Origin: Melioribacteraceae bacterium
Lineage (GTDB): Bacteria; Bacteroidota; Ignavibacteria; Ignavibacteriales; Melioribacteraceae
Direction: 5' to 3'
NCBI GenBank assembly: GCA_027030245.1
Contig: JALVFE010000029.1
Span: 1-64,000, forward strand
Length of the DNA: 64,000 nt
Shown in pieces: positions 10,541 through 31,909 of this stretch. The translations under genes were made by a program, and so were the position numbers. A model generated the notes under the pieces. The model searched no databases, was not told where the DNA came from, and saw nothing but the letters and a program-made list of their open reading frames with translations. Position 1 is the first letter of the stretch; each line of letters starts with the position of its first letter.

Positions 10541-13246
10541 TTACTTGATTAGCATCATCCGTTTTACCTGCGTGAAATTACCCGCTTGCAGTTTGTAGAA
10601 ATATATTCCGCTGTTCAGCTTGCTTGCGTTGAACTTCACCGTATATGTTCCCGGTGATTGATGTTTGTTTACCAAGGTTGCCACTTCGCGCCCGAGTATA
10701 TCGTATACTTTTAGGATAACGAACCCCACCTCGGTCCTCCCCTTTGCCAAAGGGGAGGAAGCCGGAAGCGTTGGTATTGAATAGGTAATTGTTGTTGTTG
10801 GATTAAACGGATTCGGGTAATTTTGCGAAAGTGAATATTTCTCAGGAACACCGATATCATTATTTCTAACCGAAACAACTTGCTGATTCTTATACTTTTT
10901 AATTATAATTTCATTTTCCGATGTCCCAACCGCAATAATATTTTCATCGTTATCCAAACCAATAAACATTCCGGCATTATCAACTTCCAAGTTATTTGTA
11001 ATAATTCCACTATCTCCGAAAGTAGAATCTACGGTACCATCGCCGTTATAACGAATCAAAGCCATTTCGTTAATACTATCATTTTGTATTTTACCGATTA
11101 CGATTATATGTCCGCTTTTATCAATTACAAAATTCTTTTTACTGGCATTTTCTTGAATGAAAGGGGTTTGTAAAATACCGTCATTTCCAAAAGCTTTGTC
11201 TATCGTTCCATTGTAATTAAAACGAATTATTGAAATATGCGATTTATAAACCGTCGAAACCAAAACACGGTTTTGTAAATCGGTAGCAACGGTGTAGCCT
11301 TCATTACTTGAATAGGTTGAATATCCTTTACTGTTAAATGTTCTATCTGTTGAAACGTCACTGTTTTTTCTATGGACAATAATTCTCCCGTTGTTTGAAT
11401 TTGTATCAAACTTTTTACCGCAAAATAAAATTTTACCTTCAGAATCCATTGCAACGGAATGTACTTTTTCTAAAAATGAATGATCACTTTGAAAAACTTT
11501 CCCGGATACACGACCATCAGGTAAAATTTTTGTAACAACAGGATACTCCTTTTCCCCTCCCAGTAACGTAATAATATCTCCATTGTTATTTATAGCAATA
11601 TCACAAATATGGTGAGTGTGTGCGTATCTATAATAATTAATTATCGAAACACCCGACCAATCTCCGAAGTTTCTATCCAAATAGCTGTTATTTTTAAGAT
11701 TGAGAAGCACACTATAATCATATTCTGTCCATGTTCTTAAAGGTCCGCCGCAAATTACTCCACCGGAATTATTTGCTTCGATAGATTTAATTGATAGTCT
11801 GTTTGCAAGTAGTCCGTCATAGTTAAAGGTACTATCCCGTTTTCCTTCACTATTTAATTTTAATATTTTTCTGTTGCTTAGAATAAAAATATTATTTTCA
11901 TTATCAACGGAAACATCTTGAAGAGCAGGTTTAATATATAGTTTCGATAAAGAAGAATAAAGAATCCCGTTTTTACCGAATTGTTCATCAAACTCACCAT
12001 TTTTAAGAATACGAAGCAGTGTTATAACTTCTCCTCCCTTAAAATCTGTAGTTCCACCCAACAATACGGAACCATCATCATTGTAAATCAATTTTTTAAT
12101 CATATTTCCGTATGTAAAAAACGGAAGAACAATAGAATCTACAGTTTCGCCATTAGTTGTTAATCTATATAAATAATTCTTAGAATATCCGTCACCCGTA
12201 TTAAAAGTTGTATTCGCCGCGTTTGTATATAAAGAAAAAGCTATTTCTCCTTTGTTGTTCAATGATAAAGAAGACGGTCTGTTATCTTCCGAAGTAAGAA
12301 ATTGTTTGTAAAATTTTCTATTGCCGTTACTATCAACAATGTCAATAAACGTGCTCGGATTAAAATCGGATTTACTGTCGTAATAATAATTATAACCTAA
12401 TGAAACAATATCGCCATTAATATTTTCCGCAATTCTGATAATTCTTCCGCGCCAAGATTCTCCATAGGAGACTCCGTTTTCACCAAACGTAGTATCAGGT
12501 TCACCTGCATTATTATATTTTACCAAACAATAACCTACCATTTTAGGGTTACCTTCGGCCAACAGAGCGGCAACTATTATGTTATTATTTTTATCAATCG
12601 TTAAAGCATCCAAACGCTCAACATCATCTACGTTTACTTCAACAATTCCATTATTGCCGAAAGTCGTATCCAAAGTTCCGGTAGAATTGTATTTACCGAT
12701 AACATTTATATTGTTACCCGATGCATCTTTGTATTTGCCGGTTACTATTATATCATTATCCCTATTTACTTTTAAGCCGGTAATCCGGATTTCGATTTTA
12801 TTATAAAAATCTTGTTTGAAATATTCTTCACCGGCTTGATTTACACTCAATTCAAAACGGGCAATTACTATATCAGATGAGTATTTATAGGTTCTTCCCA
12901 ATATGATATTTCCATCCGAATCAATGGCTGAATATTGTGAAAAATCCAAATCGGTTTCAAAATTAAGAATACCTTTTCCGGAACTTCCTATACTCCCATC
13001 AGGTTTCCCGTTTTTATTATAAAAGATACCATAAAATCCGGTTAGATAACTTTTGGGATTACTTGGAACACATCCTACGACAAATATATTTCCGTCTTCT
13101 CCAACTGACATATCAATAAATCTACTTTGCTCACTGTATGGCCGATAGTTAAATGACCAAATTTCTTCTGTGTTTTGTGATACTATTTTGTTTGGAATAA
13201 AGGTTGAAAATATAAATATGGTTAGAAAGTAAGATAGCTTTTTCAT
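10541..13246 (-). CDS. Secreted delta-60 repeat protein with type IX sorting domain
   Basis: Signal peptide (MKKLSYF... to IVSQ), then roughly 780 residues of repeats of the form 'GxxDxTFGxxGI', the delta-60 repeat that probably builds a beta-propeller. The last 90 or so residues are a type IX secretion C-terminal sorting domain (SLSQNYPNPFNPTT ... ILGREVATLV ... SGIYFYKL). It is likely translocated by T9SS and anchored or released at the surface; no binding partner is evident. I chose the ATG at 13246 because a GAGGT site precedes it; a TTG at 13261 is less likely. A palindromic DNA element lies inside the sorting domain at 10736-10758. Confidence 0.85.
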   Translation of the reverse strand: MKKLSYFLTIFIFSTFIPNKIVSQNTEEIWSFNYRPYSEQSRFIDMSVGEDGNIFVVGCVPSNPKSYLTGFYGIFYNKNGKPDGSIGSSGKGILNFETDLDFSQYSAIDSDGNIILGRTYKYSSDIVIARFELSVNQAGEEYFKQDFYNKIEIRITGLKVNRDNDIIVTGKYKDASGNNINVIGKYNSTGTLDTTFGNNGIVEVNVDDVERLDALTIDKNNNIIVAALLAEGNPKMVGYCLVKYNNAGEPDTTFGENGVSYGESWRGRIIRIAENINGDIVSLGYNYYYDSKSDFNPSTFIDIVDSNGNRKFYKQFLTSEDNRPSSLSLNNKGEIAFSLYTNAANTTFNTGDGYSKNYLYRLTTNGETVDSIVLPFFTYGNMIKKLIYNDDGSVLLGGTTDFKGGEVITLLRILKNGEFDEQFGKNGILYSSLSKLYIKPALQDVSVDNENNIFILSNRKILKLNSEGKRDSTFNYDGLLANRLSIKSIEANNSGGVICGGPLRTWTEYDYSVLLNLKNNSYLDRNFGDWSGVSIINYYRYAHTHHICDIAINNNGDIITLLGGEKEYPVVTKILPDGRVSGKVFQSDHSFLEKVHSVAMDSEGKILFCGKKFDTNSNNGRIIVHRKNSDVSTDRTFNSKGYSTYSSNEGYTVATDLQNRVLVSTVYKSHISIIRFNYNGTIDKAFGNDGILQTPFIQENASKKNFVIDKSGHIIVIGKIQNDSINEMALIRYNGDGTVDSTFGDSGIITNNLEVDNAGMFIGLDNDENIIAVGTSENEIIIKKYKNQQVVSVRNNDIGVPEKYSLSQNYPNPFNPTTTITYSIPTLPASSPLAKGRTEVGFVILKVYDILGREVATLVNKHQSPGTYTVKFNASKLNSGIYFYKLQAGNFTQVKRMMLIK
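10736..10758. repeat. Palindromic element inside the sorting-domain coding sequence (copy 1)
   Basis: CCTCCCCTTT-GCC-AAAGGGGAGG: a perfect 10-bp stem with a 3-nt loop, read in frame as part of a SSPLAKG linker between the YSIP strand and the LKVYDILGRE strand. Identical copies lie at 14474-14496, and one a base pair shorter on each side at 29256-29276. Confidence 0.85.
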
Positions 13247-13372
13247 AATAACCTCAAACAATTTTATGATAAGCGCTACATAATTTAAAACTTATAATTT
13301 AAATTACAAATCATTTATAAATAAATTGTGATTCAGAATAATTACATTTAAAAAAAATCCTCATTATCCGCA

Positions 13373-14010
13373 TTATAAGAAAAATAGAATATCTAATCTT
13401 TGTTTCAACAATATCATTTTACAAACTTGCGAAAAATCGTTCGTAAACAATTTGTAATAATAAATTCCGCTCGGTAATCCGCCTGCTGCGGATTTTGCAT
13501 TGAATGTTACACGGTAATTTCCGGGTTTTTGTTTACCGGTGTTATAGTTTCCCTTCCGAAAATATCGTAAACTTTAAGTGATACGGGAATCTTTCCCCTC
13601 ACCTGTCCTGCGGACACCCTCTCCCCAAGGGAGAGGGATGGGGTGAGGGTATATTTTATCGTTGTTGCCGTGTTAAACGGATTCGGGTAATTCTGACTTA
13701 ACTCGAATTTTTCAGGCGCCCCTACATACACTTCCACTATCTGCGAATATTCATACAAGCCATCCACATCAACTTGTTTTAATCTGTAGATATATTTTCC
13801 GGATTCGCCAATTGTTTTGTCAATGTAAGCATATTCTTTCGGGGAATTACTGTTTCCGTGTCCGTTTACAAAATCTTCGTACTTGTGATCGTTTTGATAG
13901 GAATTAAACGGACCGCTTCCTTGTGTCCATTTTGAGGGATCGTCGAAATTTACCGGTTGCGCAATTAGCGGAATTGTAATTAATAAAAAAAGTAAAATCG
14001 TTTTTTTCAT
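13373..14010 (-). pseudogene. Frameshifted short type IX cargo gene
   Basis: The intact frame (13507-14010, 167 aa) has a signal peptide (ending LIAQ), a short unique stretch, the segment FVNGHGNSNSPKEYAYIDKTIG shared with the next gene upstream, and the first half of a sorting domain, and stops after GRETITPVNKN. The rest continues in another frame: PGNYRVTFNAK then GGLPSGIYYYKL and KMILLK, ending at 13373. The break is at the A-run around 13526-13534, so one base is missing or extra. It looks like a shortened duplicate of the 14279-15451 gene. A sequencing error would restore a small full protein. Confidence 0.75.
13596..13649. repeat. Branched palindromic element inside a sorting domain
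   Basis: An outer 8-bp stem CCCTCACC/GGTGAGGG (13596-13603, 13642-13649) encloses two hairpins: TGTCC-TGC-GGACA (13604-13616) and CCCTCTCCC-CAA-GGGAGAGGG (13617-13637). It is translated in frame as the linker TPSLSLGERVSAGQVRGK, at the same position where the other sorting domains carry the unrelated CCTCCCC palindrome. Confidence 0.85.
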
Positions 14011-14278: not shown

Positions 14279-15451
14279 TTATTTAACCAGCATCATGCGT
14301 CTTACTTGCGTGAAATCTCCCGCTTGTAATTTGTAGAAATATATTCCGCTGTTCAGCCCGCTTGCGTTGAACTTCACTGTATATCTTCCCGGTGATTGAT
14401 GTTGGTTTACCAAGGTCGCTACTTCGCGCCCGAGTATATCGTATACTTTTAGGGTAACGAACCCCACCTCGGTCCTCCCCTTTGCCAAAGGGGAGGAAGC
14501 CGGAAGCGTTGGTATTGAATAGGTAATTGTTGTTGTTGGATTAAACGGATTCGGGTAATTCTGACTTAACTCGAATTTTTCAGGTGCTCCAACGTATACT
14601 TCCACTACCGGGGAATATTCATACGAACCGTCAACATCAACTTGTTTTAATCTGTAGAAGTATTTTCCCGATCCGCCGATTGTTTCGTCAACATAACTGT
14701 ATTCTTTCGGCGAACTGCTGTTTCCGTGTCCGTTTACAAAATCTATTGTTTCCCAATTTTTGCTTTCTCCGGAATTTGTTGCTGCAAGAGATTCCGAAGC
14801 CCGTTCAACGTAAAATCCGTAATTGTTTACTTCCGTTGCCGTTTTCCAGTGTAACTCAACAACATTTCCTGAAGCTAGCGCCGTAAAGGTTGTGAGTTCG
14901 ACAGGAAGGACCTGGTCATTTTCCAAAGTACCAGGTGTCGCGTTATCAGCATTGTCTGTACCATCATAATCACTTGTACTATTGCCTGTACTCAATCGTT
15001 TGACCCTTTTATTTTTGGCAACAGGTTCTGCTGTATAAGCATCATCGGGTAATGGGTCAACATTATTCCCCGAATTATCTTCAAACAGGAATACTTCATC
15101 ACCATTAATTTGAGGACATTTGTTTCCAGAATTAACATATGTAACATTTGAAGAAAATGTTACCTCCCAAAAAGATTCGAAATCAGCTTGATTTGAGTTT
15201 CTACCAATTACTAAAATTCCTTTTGCAGGGATTGATGTACCGCTTGGTAAAGTATAGGAGTGTGTGGCGTTTTTTTGCCTAAGAACATAACCACTGACAT
15301 CAACATCAGTATTCGCATCATTATAGATTTCAACAAATTCATAAACATAATTACCACTTCCATTGGCATCTGAATATTCACTAATATAAACTTGCCCCCA
15401 AACAATTCCGCTAAGGAATAGAAAGATTAAAATAGTAATTAAATTTTTCAT
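14279..15451 (-). CDS. Secreted lamin-tail-domain protein with type IX sorting domain
   Basis: Signal peptide (to IVWGQ), then a lamin-tail domain (LTD) of about 130 residues beginning VYISEYSDANGSG and including EFVEIYND and GKGILVIGR-like strands. A linker domain (PVELTTFTALASGN...) follows, and a complete type IX sorting domain ends the chain. LTDs are common in exported proteins of this lineage and are thought to bind surfaces or assist secretion. The ATG at 15451 is preceded by a strong GGAGG; a longer start at 15490 has no such support. Its last third is closely similar at DNA level to the neighbouring genes at 10541 and 13507. Confidence 0.85.
   Translation of the reverse strand: MKNLITILIFLFLSGIVWGQVYISEYSDANGSGNYVYEFVEIYNDANTDVDVSGYVLRQKNATHSYTLPSGTSIPAKGILVIGRNSNQADFESFWEVTFSSNVTYVNSGNKCPQINGDEVFLFEDNSGNNVDPLPDDAYTAEPVAKNKRVKRLSTGNSTSDYDGTDNADNATPGTLENDQVLPVELTTFTALASGNVVELHWKTATEVNNYGFYVERASESLAATNSGESKNWETIDFVNGHGNSSSPKEYSYVDETIGGSGKYFYRLKQVDVDGSYEYSPVVEVYVGAPEKFELSQNYPNPFNPTTTITYSIPTLPASSPLAKGRTEVGFVTLKVYDILGREVATLVNQHQSPGRYTVKFNASGLNSGIYFYKLQAGDFTQVRRMMLVK
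14474..14496. repeat. Palindromic element inside the sorting-domain coding sequence (copy 2)
   Basis: CCTCCCCTTT-GCC-AAAGGGGAGG again, identical to the copy at 10736-10758 and at the same codon positions of the sorting domain. Confidence 0.85.
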
Positions 15452-16007
15452 CCAACCTCCAAGATTAATTTTAAGAATTTTTTCAACCAAGATTTTGCTA
15501 GTAGAGAAAAAACAATAAAATATTTATTCAAAAACGTTCTCAATTTAGAACGCCAAAATATTTGTTAATGTGATTTAAATCACTTTTCTGAAAAACCATC
15601 AAAAATTGTGCAGAAAGGAAAACACCGGAAAAATTACGGGATATTTTTATACATCAATAAAGTAATTATTAGAAAAATAGTCAAAAAATATTTTCCCTAA
15701 CTCGTTGTAACAAAAAGAGTTACACCGTTTTTCGGGATTGATTATTCCTATAAAAAAATAAGTTATGTGTGTGATTTAACAAATTACTTTAAGTTGAAAT
15801 TTTAGATTTTTTTATGCTTCAAAACGGGAAATTTCAGCTTTGTCTAATCTCAAAATAAGACTTGTATTTTTCTATAAGCATATTATTGCTTTAGAAATTT
15901 TGAGATTTAATTATTGTGGCGTGGAAGCAATGGAACTACAAGAGAATTTGTCAGCCATTATTTATTTTGCTCGGCTTTACGGGGGTTTTCCGATTTCCGG
16001 GTTGAGT
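15452..16007. other. AT-rich intergenic region upstream of the lamin-tail gene
   Basis: About 550 bases with no convincing gene. The only recognisable site is the CRP-like palindrome at 15570-15583. A 75-codon ORF from 15840 on the plus strand overlaps the lipoprotein gene and lacks coding character. Confidence 0.5.
15569..15584. promoter_or_regulatory. CRP/FNR-family-like operator (copy 2)
   Basis: TGTGATTTAAATCACT contains the same 14-bp palindrome as 14180-14193, here about 119 bp upstream of the lamin-tail gene start. Two identical operators in front of two related cargo genes suggest joint control, or duplication of the whole promoter region. Confidence 0.5.
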
Positions 16008-24554: not shown

Positions 24555-24580
24555 AACCCGGCTTAAAGCCGGGTTTTTTA
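24555..24580 (+). terminator. Rho-independent terminator of the cyclase-porin operon
   Basis: AACCCGGCT (24555-24563), loop TAA, AGCCGGGTT (24567-24575), then TTTTT. It lies 23 bp past the stop codon. Confidence 0.9.
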
Positions 24581-29059: not shown

Positions 29060-31909
29060 TTATCTCAACAAAACCATTTTACGCACTTTGGTGTGGTCAC
29101 CTGCGGATAGCTTATAAAAATAAACTCCGCTTGGTAGATTCCCAGAGTTGAACGTTGTGGTGTAATTGCCCGGATATTGTTTTTTATTTACAAGCGTTGC
29201 AATTTCCCGACCAAGAACATCGTAAATTTTCAAGGTCACAAACCCCTCCTCGGTACTCCCCTTTGCCAAAGGGGAGGAGGGTGCAATTGAATATTTAATT
29301 GTGGTGGTTGGATTAAACGGATTCGGGTAATTTTGATAAAGCTCAAAGTTTTGTGCAACCGGACCTCTACCCGGTGCAATGCCGGAGGGCAAATCGCGAT
29401 ATTTTATTCTGCTTCTGCTTACGGTATTTTTTAATTCGTCCATTGTTTTTGCCCCGCTTATGGAAAAAGCAACATCTAAAGAATCATTTTGCGATATTGT
29501 AAGTGGTCCAGCGGAAATTACAACCGAAATATCGCTAGGTCCGGCAGAAATAAACTGCAGTCCGCTTGATATAGCAGACCATTTTTCCGCATCGGTAAAT
29601 CCGTCCCATGCGATAACACCGCCGTTATTTCCGTCTTGATCCATTGCGTAAAAATTAAATTTATCGGATGACAACAACGCCAATCCCAGCTTAGTGTCGG
29701 TGGGATTTCCGTCTTCGTCGTAAACAAAACCGAAATTATTCAATGTATCGTAACCCGCAACGTCGCCGTCCCAATCGTTTTCATCCATATCAAAATCGAA
29801 AAACAAGCCGGCGTAAAAGTTATCTATTCGGTTACCCGATTTGTTTATCATTCTGTACCTTAAAATGATATAGCTGTTATCCGGTGCATCCGAAAAGGTA
29901 AACGACGCAAACTTGGTTTCAATTCCCAACCCGGTTGTGTTGCTATCATCAAAAATTGAAAACCCTTGTTGATCGGCTTCAGCACCGGGCGTGGAAATTA
30001 CGAGCGGTTCAATAATTTTAAAATCATTATCTTTTGCCGACGCATCGTTGTTTCTTGCACAATTAACAATCGCGTTTTGTGATGTTCCGTAAATAAGCGC
30101 CCCTTCGAATAAAAGATTATCTTCACCCATAAATCTTAGTCCATCTCCTTCGGTATTGTTCGGGTAATCGTTGTATCCCAACGAGCCGTTACTTGTAAGA
30201 GTCAATTCCAAGTTGTTTATATCCTGATTGGCAAATGTCGGATTTGCATTAAGCGAAATCCATTGAAACCCGGAGTATGAACCGTCGGCAAAATTCAAAA
30301 GCAGATCTATTTTAGCATTCGGGGGAGTGTTTTGATCTATGGAAATTTCAAACTTTCCGTTAGCGTTAGATTTGGTTTCCAACGTTTGCATGCTTCCGAA
30401 ATTGGCATTCCCGTTTACTACAGAAGCATATTGCGGTTGATTTTGAATATTGACATTTAAGTTTGTAACGGGTGACAAATAATTAGTAACAAAAATCTCA
30501 ATGGCAATATTTTCACCCGATTCAATAATTCCGTCGCCGTCGCCTAAATCTGTAATTTCGTAATTTACAACACGTGCCGATTTTGTACCGGTGCGGGAAA
30601 GAGCTTGATAAGCATCTATTCTGCCGGAACCAAACATATATTGAAATGACGGGTTTTTATCATCAATATTTGATGTTGTTACTCTTATTTGCTCGCCGAT
30701 TTGCAAAGGATTATATTGAGGAAAAACACTCTTTACCAAAGCCGCTAATCCGGCTACCAACGGGGAAGACATAGATGTTCCGCTGGCGCCTTTGTATGTA
30801 TCGTTTTGCCAAGTTGAGTATATTGAGACACCGGGCGCAACAACATCTATTGATTTTCCGTAATTTGAAAAGCTCGCTTTCTGATCGACAAAATTTGTAG
30901 CTGCAACTGACAAGACACCTTTATAACTCGCAGGATAAAACGGATCTTGTCTGTTATCGTTTCCCGCAGCTGCAACAACCAACGCTCCTTTTCCGATAGC
31001 GTAATTAATAACTTCTTGAGAGAGCCGTGAATAATTATATCCACCCCAACTGCAATTTATAACATCTGCGCCGTTGTCCGCAGCATATACAATTCCCTCG
31101 TAACCGTGTGAAATCAATGCCGTACCCACATCGGATCTGATGTTGTCTTGCGAAGTCTTAACCGCCATTATTTTAGAGGAAAAACCGATTGACGCAATGC
31201 CAATAGAGTTATCGGTTACCGCGCCGGCTATTCCCGCAACCAAAGTTCCGTGATCGGGTTTGTCTTCCACCGGGTCATTATCCGGCGTTCCGTCAGCTCC
31301 TCCGAAATCCCAACCCCTTACATCGTCTATGTATCCGTTGTTATCGTCGTCGATGCCGTTATCCGGAATTTCATCTTGATTGATCCAAATATTTCCCGCC
31401 AAATCCGGATGATCCCAATCAATCCCAGTATCTACAATTCCAATTACTATGTCTTCGCTGCCTTTACTAATATCCCATGCTTTGTCTGCGCTTATTTGAT
31501 ATAGATGTTTAAGGGTACTGTCGACATATTTCGGGTCGTTAGGTTCATAAACCGTTTCGTAAAGAAAATACGGTTCAGCCCACTCAACGTTGTATTGCTT
31601 TTTAAATTCTTTGATAAACTTTAGTATTTCCAACGGAGAAGCAATTCTAACAATTTTAATTTTCGATAGCTCGTCTTGTTTTGTTCTTTTGGGAAATGCC
31701 GGTTTTATTTCTTCAATATATTTCTCCAACTTATCTGCAGCTTGTGGTTTTGCATACGAATTTTTCTTTTTCAAAGACTCAAATATTGTTTTAATAACAA
31801 ATCTGTCCGTGAAATAATATCCGTTTTCGTTTTTAGCAATTTGTCCGTTAATTTTTGCGAAAAAGAAAAAAAGAATTGTGCTTAGATATATTAATTTACG
31901 GAAGAGCAT
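29060..31909 (-). CDS. Secreted subtilisin-like serine peptidase (S8) with type IX sorting domain
   Basis: Signal peptide (to INGQ), then an inhibitor-like propeptide (about 24-130). The S8 catalytic domain has D160 (GIVDTGID), H220 (DHGTLVAG) and S379 (GTSMSSP). A beta-sandwich region (about 440-850) without a recognised name follows, and a type IX sorting domain (NYPNPFNPTT...YFYKL) ends the chain. It is a surface or extracellular protease exported through the outer membrane by T9SS. 949 aa and apparently intact. The sorting domain contains the same CTCCCC palindrome as two other cargo genes, at 29256-29276. Confidence 0.93.
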   Translation of the reverse strand: MLFRKLIYLSTILFFFFAKINGQIAKNENGYYFTDRFVIKTIFESLKKKNSYAKPQAADKLEKYIEEIKPAFPKRTKQDELSKIKIVRIASPLEILKFIKEFKKQYNVEWAEPYFLYETVYEPNDPKYVDSTLKHLYQISADKAWDISKGSEDIVIGIVDTGIDWDHPDLAGNIWINQDEIPDNGIDDDNNGYIDDVRGWDFGGADGTPDNDPVEDKPDHGTLVAGIAGAVTDNSIGIASIGFSSKIMAVKTSQDNIRSDVGTALISHGYEGIVYAADNGADVINCSWGGYNYSRLSQEVINYAIGKGALVVAAAGNDNRQDPFYPASYKGVLSVAATNFVDQKASFSNYGKSIDVVAPGVSIYSTWQNDTYKGASGTSMSSPLVAGLAALVKSVFPQYNPLQIGEQIRVTTSNIDDKNPSFQYMFGSGRIDAYQALSRTGTKSARVVNYEITDLGDGDGIIESGENIAIEIFVTNYLSPVTNLNVNIQNQPQYASVVNGNANFGSMQTLETKSNANGKFEISIDQNTPPNAKIDLLLNFADGSYSGFQWISLNANPTFANQDINNLELTLTSNGSLGYNDYPNNTEGDGLRFMGEDNLLFEGALIYGTSQNAIVNCARNNDASAKDNDFKIIEPLVISTPGAEADQQGFSIFDDSNTTGLGIETKFASFTFSDAPDNSYIILRYRMINKSGNRIDNFYAGLFFDFDMDENDWDGDVAGYDTLNNFGFVYDEDGNPTDTKLGLALLSSDKFNFYAMDQDGNNGGVIAWDGFTDAEKWSAISSGLQFISAGPSDISVVISAGPLTISQNDSLDVAFSISGAKTMDELKNTVSRSRIKYRDLPSGIAPGRGPVAQNFELYQNYPNPFNPTTTIKYSIAPSSPLAKGSTEEGFVTLKIYDVLGREIATLVNKKQYPGNYTTTFNSGNLPSGVYFYKLSAGDHTKVRKMVLLR
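29256..29276. repeat. Palindromic element inside the sorting-domain coding sequence (copy 3)
   Basis: CTCCCCTTT-GCC-AAAGGGGAG, a perfect 9-bp stem, translated in frame as SSPLAKG at the same loop of the sorting domain as copies 1 and 2 although the host gene is unrelated upstream. Confidence 0.85.

Follow-up and report, generated by a model that had tools for sequence, protein, structure and literature searches.

Palindromic repeats within genes

Rickettsia palindromic elements (RPE) belong to few families that insert in many proteins. These mobile-looking palindromes are found in frame in many genes, while the intragenic REPs of the GTAG/CGTC type are short palindromes translated in various unrelated proteins, where they have been proposed to occupy flexible linkers or loops (Di Nocera et al., 2013; PMC3733652). 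TM_ECO, formerly known as BoxC or PIT, is a potential intrastrand triplex with 3610 occurrences in 262 proteobacterial genomes; all its copies in E. coli are reported to be intergenic (Holder et al., 2015; PMC4666352).

Here, we describe palindromic elements within the type IX secretion (T9SS) C-terminal sorting domain (TIGR04183/PF18962), the host domain of the inserts and an export tag carried by many secreted proteins of the bacterium, starting from a window of 64,000 nucleotides (the whole stretch of DNA analysed) in the 3.8-Mb genome of an uncultured Melioribacteraceae bacterium of the Ignavibacteriales (hereafter G000). This genome was covered by pattern searches and by a limited number of stretches. 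As with RPE, the insertions are palindromic and in frame, and the gene is kept open (the insert-bearing domains in G000 have open frames with no stops within), a likeness of description. As with intragenic REPs (PMC3733652), palindromes are translated within genes, and three of the families (D, E and J) begin with GTAG, as known REPs do, while A, B and C do not. Here, however, many families use one place, unlike RPE (few families, many proteins), and converge on one homologous loop, unlike intragenic REPs with their variety of proteins (PMC3733652). In-frame palindromic inserts and the BoxC/PIT element are thus already known, and what is new is the many-family, single-loop hot spot. In the literature searched, we found no description of an insertion-prone strand 2–3 loop in the T9SS sorting domain, nothing relevant joining palindromes with T9SS sorting domains, no PIT elements as coding inserts, and no case in which one homologous protein loop was shared by many unrelated palindrome families.

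A two-armed BoxC/PIT element in a sorting domain

The features of the window that concern us are as follows.

13507–14010, minus strand: focal ORF, a degenerate T9SS cargo paralogue frameshifted within its sorting domain
13596–13649, minus strand: two-armed BoxC/PIT (family B) element, translated as TPSLSLGERVSAGQVRG
13596–13603 and 13642–13649: 8-bp outer stem of family B, CCCTCACC and GGTGAGGG
13604–13616: small second hairpin (5 bp), TGTCC-TGC-GGACA, flanked by the outer arm and the main hairpin
13617–13637: main 9-bp hairpin, CCCTCTCCC-CAA-GGGAGAGGG
13617–13649, plus strand: exact match, by pattern search, to the TM_ECO pattern CCCTCNCCC N3-6 GGGNGAGGG N3 GGGNGAGGG
10553–10819, minus strand: sorting domain with family A insert, in gene 10541–13261 (DUF5122 + Por_Secre_tail)
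10722–10759, minus strand: family A palindrome and third strand
14291–14557, minus strand: sorting domain (TIGR04183) with family A insert, in gene 14279–15490 (LTD + Por_Secre_tail)
14460–14497, minus strand: family A palindrome and third strand, loop peptide PASSPLAKGRTEVGF
29072–29329, minus strand: sorting domain with family A insert, in S8 peptidase gene 29060–31909
29241–29277, minus strand: family A palindrome with one stem mismatch, loop peptide SSPLAKGSTEEGF

The 54-bp structure, which the sequence-only reading had described as an 8-bp outer stem enclosing two hairpins, is borne out by its coordinates and by its DNA fold (−21.2 kcal/mol, z −5.3, with none of 200 dinucleotide shuffles equally stable). 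Given this z-score and the 0 occurrences of the main 21-mer expected by chance in the window, a chance palindrome was rejected. The cargo gene is indeed frameshifted, as had been stated, its frame breaking after GRETITPVNK, downstream of the insert, with the remaining domain in a different frame. Over 117 aa, the first-frame part of this ORF shares 67.5% identity with residues 250–364 of its neighbour; the frameshifted ORF gave no Pfam match, and three window genes score above the cut-off for the sorting domain. The claim of in-frame translation at the SPLAKG linker is likewise correct, with the minus strand reading TPSLSLGERVSAGQVRG between NPFNTATTIKYTL and VSLKVYDIFGRE of the sorting domain, at the position held by SSPLAKG in the three other sorting domains of the window.

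With 0 mismatches to the TM_ECO pattern, of which it is the one exact match within the window, 13617–13649 reads CCCTCTCCC CAA GGGAGAGGG ATG GGGTGAGGG. By its sequence, the focal structure is a known repeat type (BoxC/PIT/TM_ECO) in an unexpected place and, judged by motif alone, a potential intrastrand triplex. It has in common with BoxC/PIT (PMC4666352) the exact pattern, the hairpin with its mirror third strand and the variable loop bases, but extends beyond that pattern by a second arm and an extra hairpin, and differs from the E. coli repeats in being translated within a protein domain, in an Ignavibacteriales genome. The small second hairpin is also present, with different loop bases, in the loop copies of two relatives (G001 and G018). 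The intergenic location, an E. coli observation that does not define the repeat, is not seen here: BoxC/PIT copies lie in sorting-domain frames in G000, G001 and G018, and within other ORFs at loci L001, L002 and L005. At L002 (~1501; G028:C37:25426-25446), the TM_ECO/BoxC palindrome is in frame in an ORF that, by sequence, resembles a cysteinyl-tRNA synthetase and would be a second kind of coding target.

The focal element had been called unrelated to the CCTCCCC palindrome (family A) of the other window domains, which is true of the sequence but not of the design, since both combine a hairpin with a mirror-image third strand. In family A, the hairpin is followed by 3 nt and a mirror of the purine arm, GGGGAGGA CCG AGGAGGGG, and the same plan is found in families C and F and partly in I. 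When 461 kb of the genome were searched for class-II triplexes, the five matches all fell within the window's four sorting-domain loops, and shuffled sequence gave none; this generic search overlooks variants such as F2, and its genome counts are lower bounds.

One homologous loop, many palindromes

The model predicted for one of the window's domains has seven strands; in it, the insert corresponds to residues 43–59, between strands 35–42 and 60–66, and is modelled as low-confidence coil (block mean pLDDT ~56). Fold matches of this model include the T9SS C-terminal domains 8qb1, 8glk and 5m11, with modest scores. We take the turn between beta-strands 2 and 3, where the insert lies, to be a disordered loop that is permissive to insertion. 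In all families, the net gain in length is that of the element minus ~9–12 nt, which implies that the original turn has been replaced by the insert.

G000 has 107 TIGR04183 domains, 95 of which could be parsed for the state of this loop: 53 are empty (short), 22 carry family A (a label assigned by loop peptide, which takes in the diverged member L117), six C, two B, two E and one D, while nine others are longer. At least five unrelated palindrome families thus fill the same loop in about one third of the parsed domains, and at least 10 families use it across relatives, with further ones (F, G, H, I, J and others) in the sister species G001, G002, G003, G010 and G028. Both exact-stem copies of family B in G000 are in the loop, the second in another sorting domain, and its copies in G001 and G018 are at the same place, which answers the search for further copies that the sequence-only reading had proposed. 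All six exact copies of family C in G000 are in the loop, as are those of G001 and G002 and most of those of G010, where the remainder lie in truncated repeats of the same region. For family A, 25 loci in G000 (≤2 mismatches) comprise 20 in sorting domains, two in sorting-domain remnants (L127 and L128) and three elsewhere. These counts, together with an orthologue that carries different palindromes in different species (see below), support the idea that the loop is a hot spot for palindromic insertions, which extends further than first stated.

Several side observations concern these loops and palindromes. The remnants L127 (G000:C2:47075) and L128 (C26:74480) are near-identical, degenerate and near two contig ends, and may represent one repeat that was collapsed or duplicated. 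At L146 (G010:C177, ~22023), a family A loop insert contains a second palindrome, CCTGCCGGCAGG (peptide CLPAG), and at L210 and L211 (G002) the family G palindrome AGACGTTGCATGCAACGTCT is followed by two additional tandem units in the loop, with the frame kept. L270 has LPAGRQG, which resembles another translated palindrome, in a second sorting-domain loop (before SGIY). The YEIPGDVKRETKNVKL-type loops at L051, L082, L084, L088 and L079 in G000 resemble fragments of the GTGAGACGTAAGACG micro-repeat (L165) and may represent a further class of repeat that the loop has taken up. The window itself has other intergenic perfect palindromes at 666 (GGGACGCAAAGTTTGCGTCCC), which resembles families H and E, and at 24555 (AACCCGGCTTAAAGCCGGGTT).

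Independent arrival of different families

The S8 peptidase gene of the window has full-length orthologues. Its loop carries family A in G000, a decayed family C in G002 and a longer, non-palindromic sequence in G001, and is short in the orthologues of nine other genomes. Among the named genomes that were scanned, BMS3Abin03 has a third palindrome and Melioribacteraceae bacterium T11 a GTAG-type one, and the loop is empty in most others with a readable domain. One orthologous gene therefore has four palindromes in four species, with mostly empty loops elsewhere, and different families reached the loop independently.

Across the order, family A has a patchy distribution and is present in 13 of 164 genomes; it has multiplied in separate bursts in G000, in G010 and in G074, whose sorting-domain loops carry their own form of it. 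The junctions of the family look identical in G000, G010, G031, G028 and G074, so that its domains may go back to an old common ancestor or have been transferred horizontally as wholes. One G010 loop holds family A in reverse orientation, which weakens the candidate of strictly directional insertion. Family C has different insertion points across G000, G002 and G010 (between IP and K, between I and S or I and P, and between KF and R).

Probable capture and copying, and the alternatives

The reading that we favour, and regard as likely, is that a permissive loop has captured small palindromic elements time and again, and that these were then copied among paralogous domains. A small, non-autonomous BoxC/PIT-type repeat would enter the turn between beta-strands 2 and 3 in frame, replacing ~9–12 nt. 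Unrelated elements (BoxC/PIT-like triplex hairpins, GTAG/CGTC-type REPs) would be captured independently per gene and species, the receptive turn being common to ~100 paralogous domains. A captured element would then probably multiply when paralogous domains exchange short stretches by recombination or conversion, with junction, frame and, mostly, orientation kept. As for the capture itself, GTAG types may have come in via Y1/RAYT action, and PIT types through template switching where a replication fork meets triplex hairpins that block the polymerase. Family A is open in each of its six frames, yet nearly all of its loop copies share one frame, one orientation and one junction, a uniformity more readily expected from copying between domains than from unguided insertion. 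Separate captures are required by the differing families, the differing insertion points of C and the reversed copy of A. The flanks are saturated, so that a target duplication or a precise empty-site junction is not definable.

If a few old insertions had simply been copied along with whole sorting domains, inserts and flanks should tell the same story, but they do not. Synonymous-codon third positions differ by 0.10 in family A inserts against 0.41 in their flanks, and by 0.04 against 0.44 in family C (4-fold to >10-fold less), with a sharp divergence boundary at the element ends; the inserts are younger than the flanks. Insert-bearing domains do form one subfamily, distinct from the empty domains (0.22–0.33 vs 0.39–0.44), and the L060/L061 and L064/L087 pairs are identical or nearly so. 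Within this subfamily, however, the type of insert appears, from sequence distances, not to be tied to the relatedness of the domains (within-between nucleotide distance −0.017, permutation p 0.063), and inserts differ between orthologous genes. Near-identical A inserts in diverged flanks, and of a type independent of relatedness, mean that simple domain duplication is not the cause; as a sole cause it is rejected, largely refuted by the contrast between flanks and inserts, and we consider it very unlikely. Tolerance alone, by which random insertions would be lost everywhere except in intergenic DNA and this loop, is a doubtful explanation that nevertheless accounts for several facts: GC-rich perfect hairpins in 461 kb are almost all intergenic or in sorting-domain loops, family B in other genomes is mostly intergenic or within other ORFs, and the inserts show no protein-level constraint. 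Indeed, with seven synonymous and 22 non-synonymous changes in family A, the synonymous share (0.24) is close to random (0.27), by which selection on the encoded peptide was rejected; protein-level evolution of the inserts is neutral. But intergenic space is ~70 times larger, and its copies in G000 number none for C, none for exact-stem B and three for A. With remnants excluded, 20 of 23 A copies are in loops, which account for ~1.4% of the tolerated space; this argues against tolerance alone, although only as a guide, since independence of the copies is assumed. If the counts are independent, tolerance is refuted as sole cause, and it stays part of the best explanation.

The same enrichment, with the same assumption of independent copies, speaks for target-specific transposition, in which an enzyme (e.g. 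a Y1/HUH single-strand transposase) would insert palindromes at a DNA motif of the domain, each copy separately; so do the almost fixed orientation and the five Y1_Tnp genes (PF01797 matches) in G000. We nonetheless find this unlikely: a single target would have to serve ten unrelated families whose ends differ, the insertion points of C vary, one A copy is reversed, and A, B and C have no tags (the ends of family B, CCCTCACC/GGTGAGGG, lack GTAG/CGTC). A 14-bp GTAG palindrome lies ~1.1 kb from one Y1 gene (L170), families A–C were not seen near any of the five in G000, and no transposase is tied to these families among the Y1 genes of the genome. Finally, the hairpin might be selected for an effect at the mRNA or DNA level (as stabiliser, pause or recombination barrier between near-identical domains), an improbable option in our view. 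In its favour, the stems of family A vary less than other insert sites, i.e. loops and spacers (7/440 vs 22/280, p 5e-5), and orthologous family B inserts of G000 and G001 differ solely in hairpin loops and spacer, in genes near third-position saturation, which fits structure maintenance or separate arrival. Against it, no compensatory stem changes were found among A copies, six of the seven stem changes disrupt a pair, many orthologues have no insert, and decayed inserts persist (L175 and L218). Low stem variation in family A may be due to weak selection on structure or to correction of one arm by the other, or the differences may have been inherited from the source copies.

Two further observations touch on Y1-type genes. 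At L172 and L173 (G000:C25, C16), matches to Y1-type transposases lie amid several near-identical 9–10 bp palindromes, which resemble REP arrays, and at L167 (~1497; G000:C21:47460-47479) a 28-bp GTAG palindrome (family E) is in frame in a 113-aa, Y1-transposase-like frame (motif HIHGIIII).

Concluding remarks

The spread of BoxC/PIT and REP-like repeats is hard to trace, because they usually turn up in intergenic DNA that is free of constraint. The sorting-domain loop is present in ~100 copies per genome and has readable flanks, a fixed frame and orthologues across many species; it keeps a record of which elements arrived, which were lost and how they are oriented, and is thereby a natural assay of palindromic-repeat movement. 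A bolder and, to our mind, improbable possibility is that a dedicated process aims palindromic single-stranded elements of any sequence at this loop, for example by recognising a structure formed during replication, in which case the bacterium would be continually rewriting one surface loop of the export tag of its whole secretome. The loop also shows that new protein sequence in an export signal can come from palindromic repeats.
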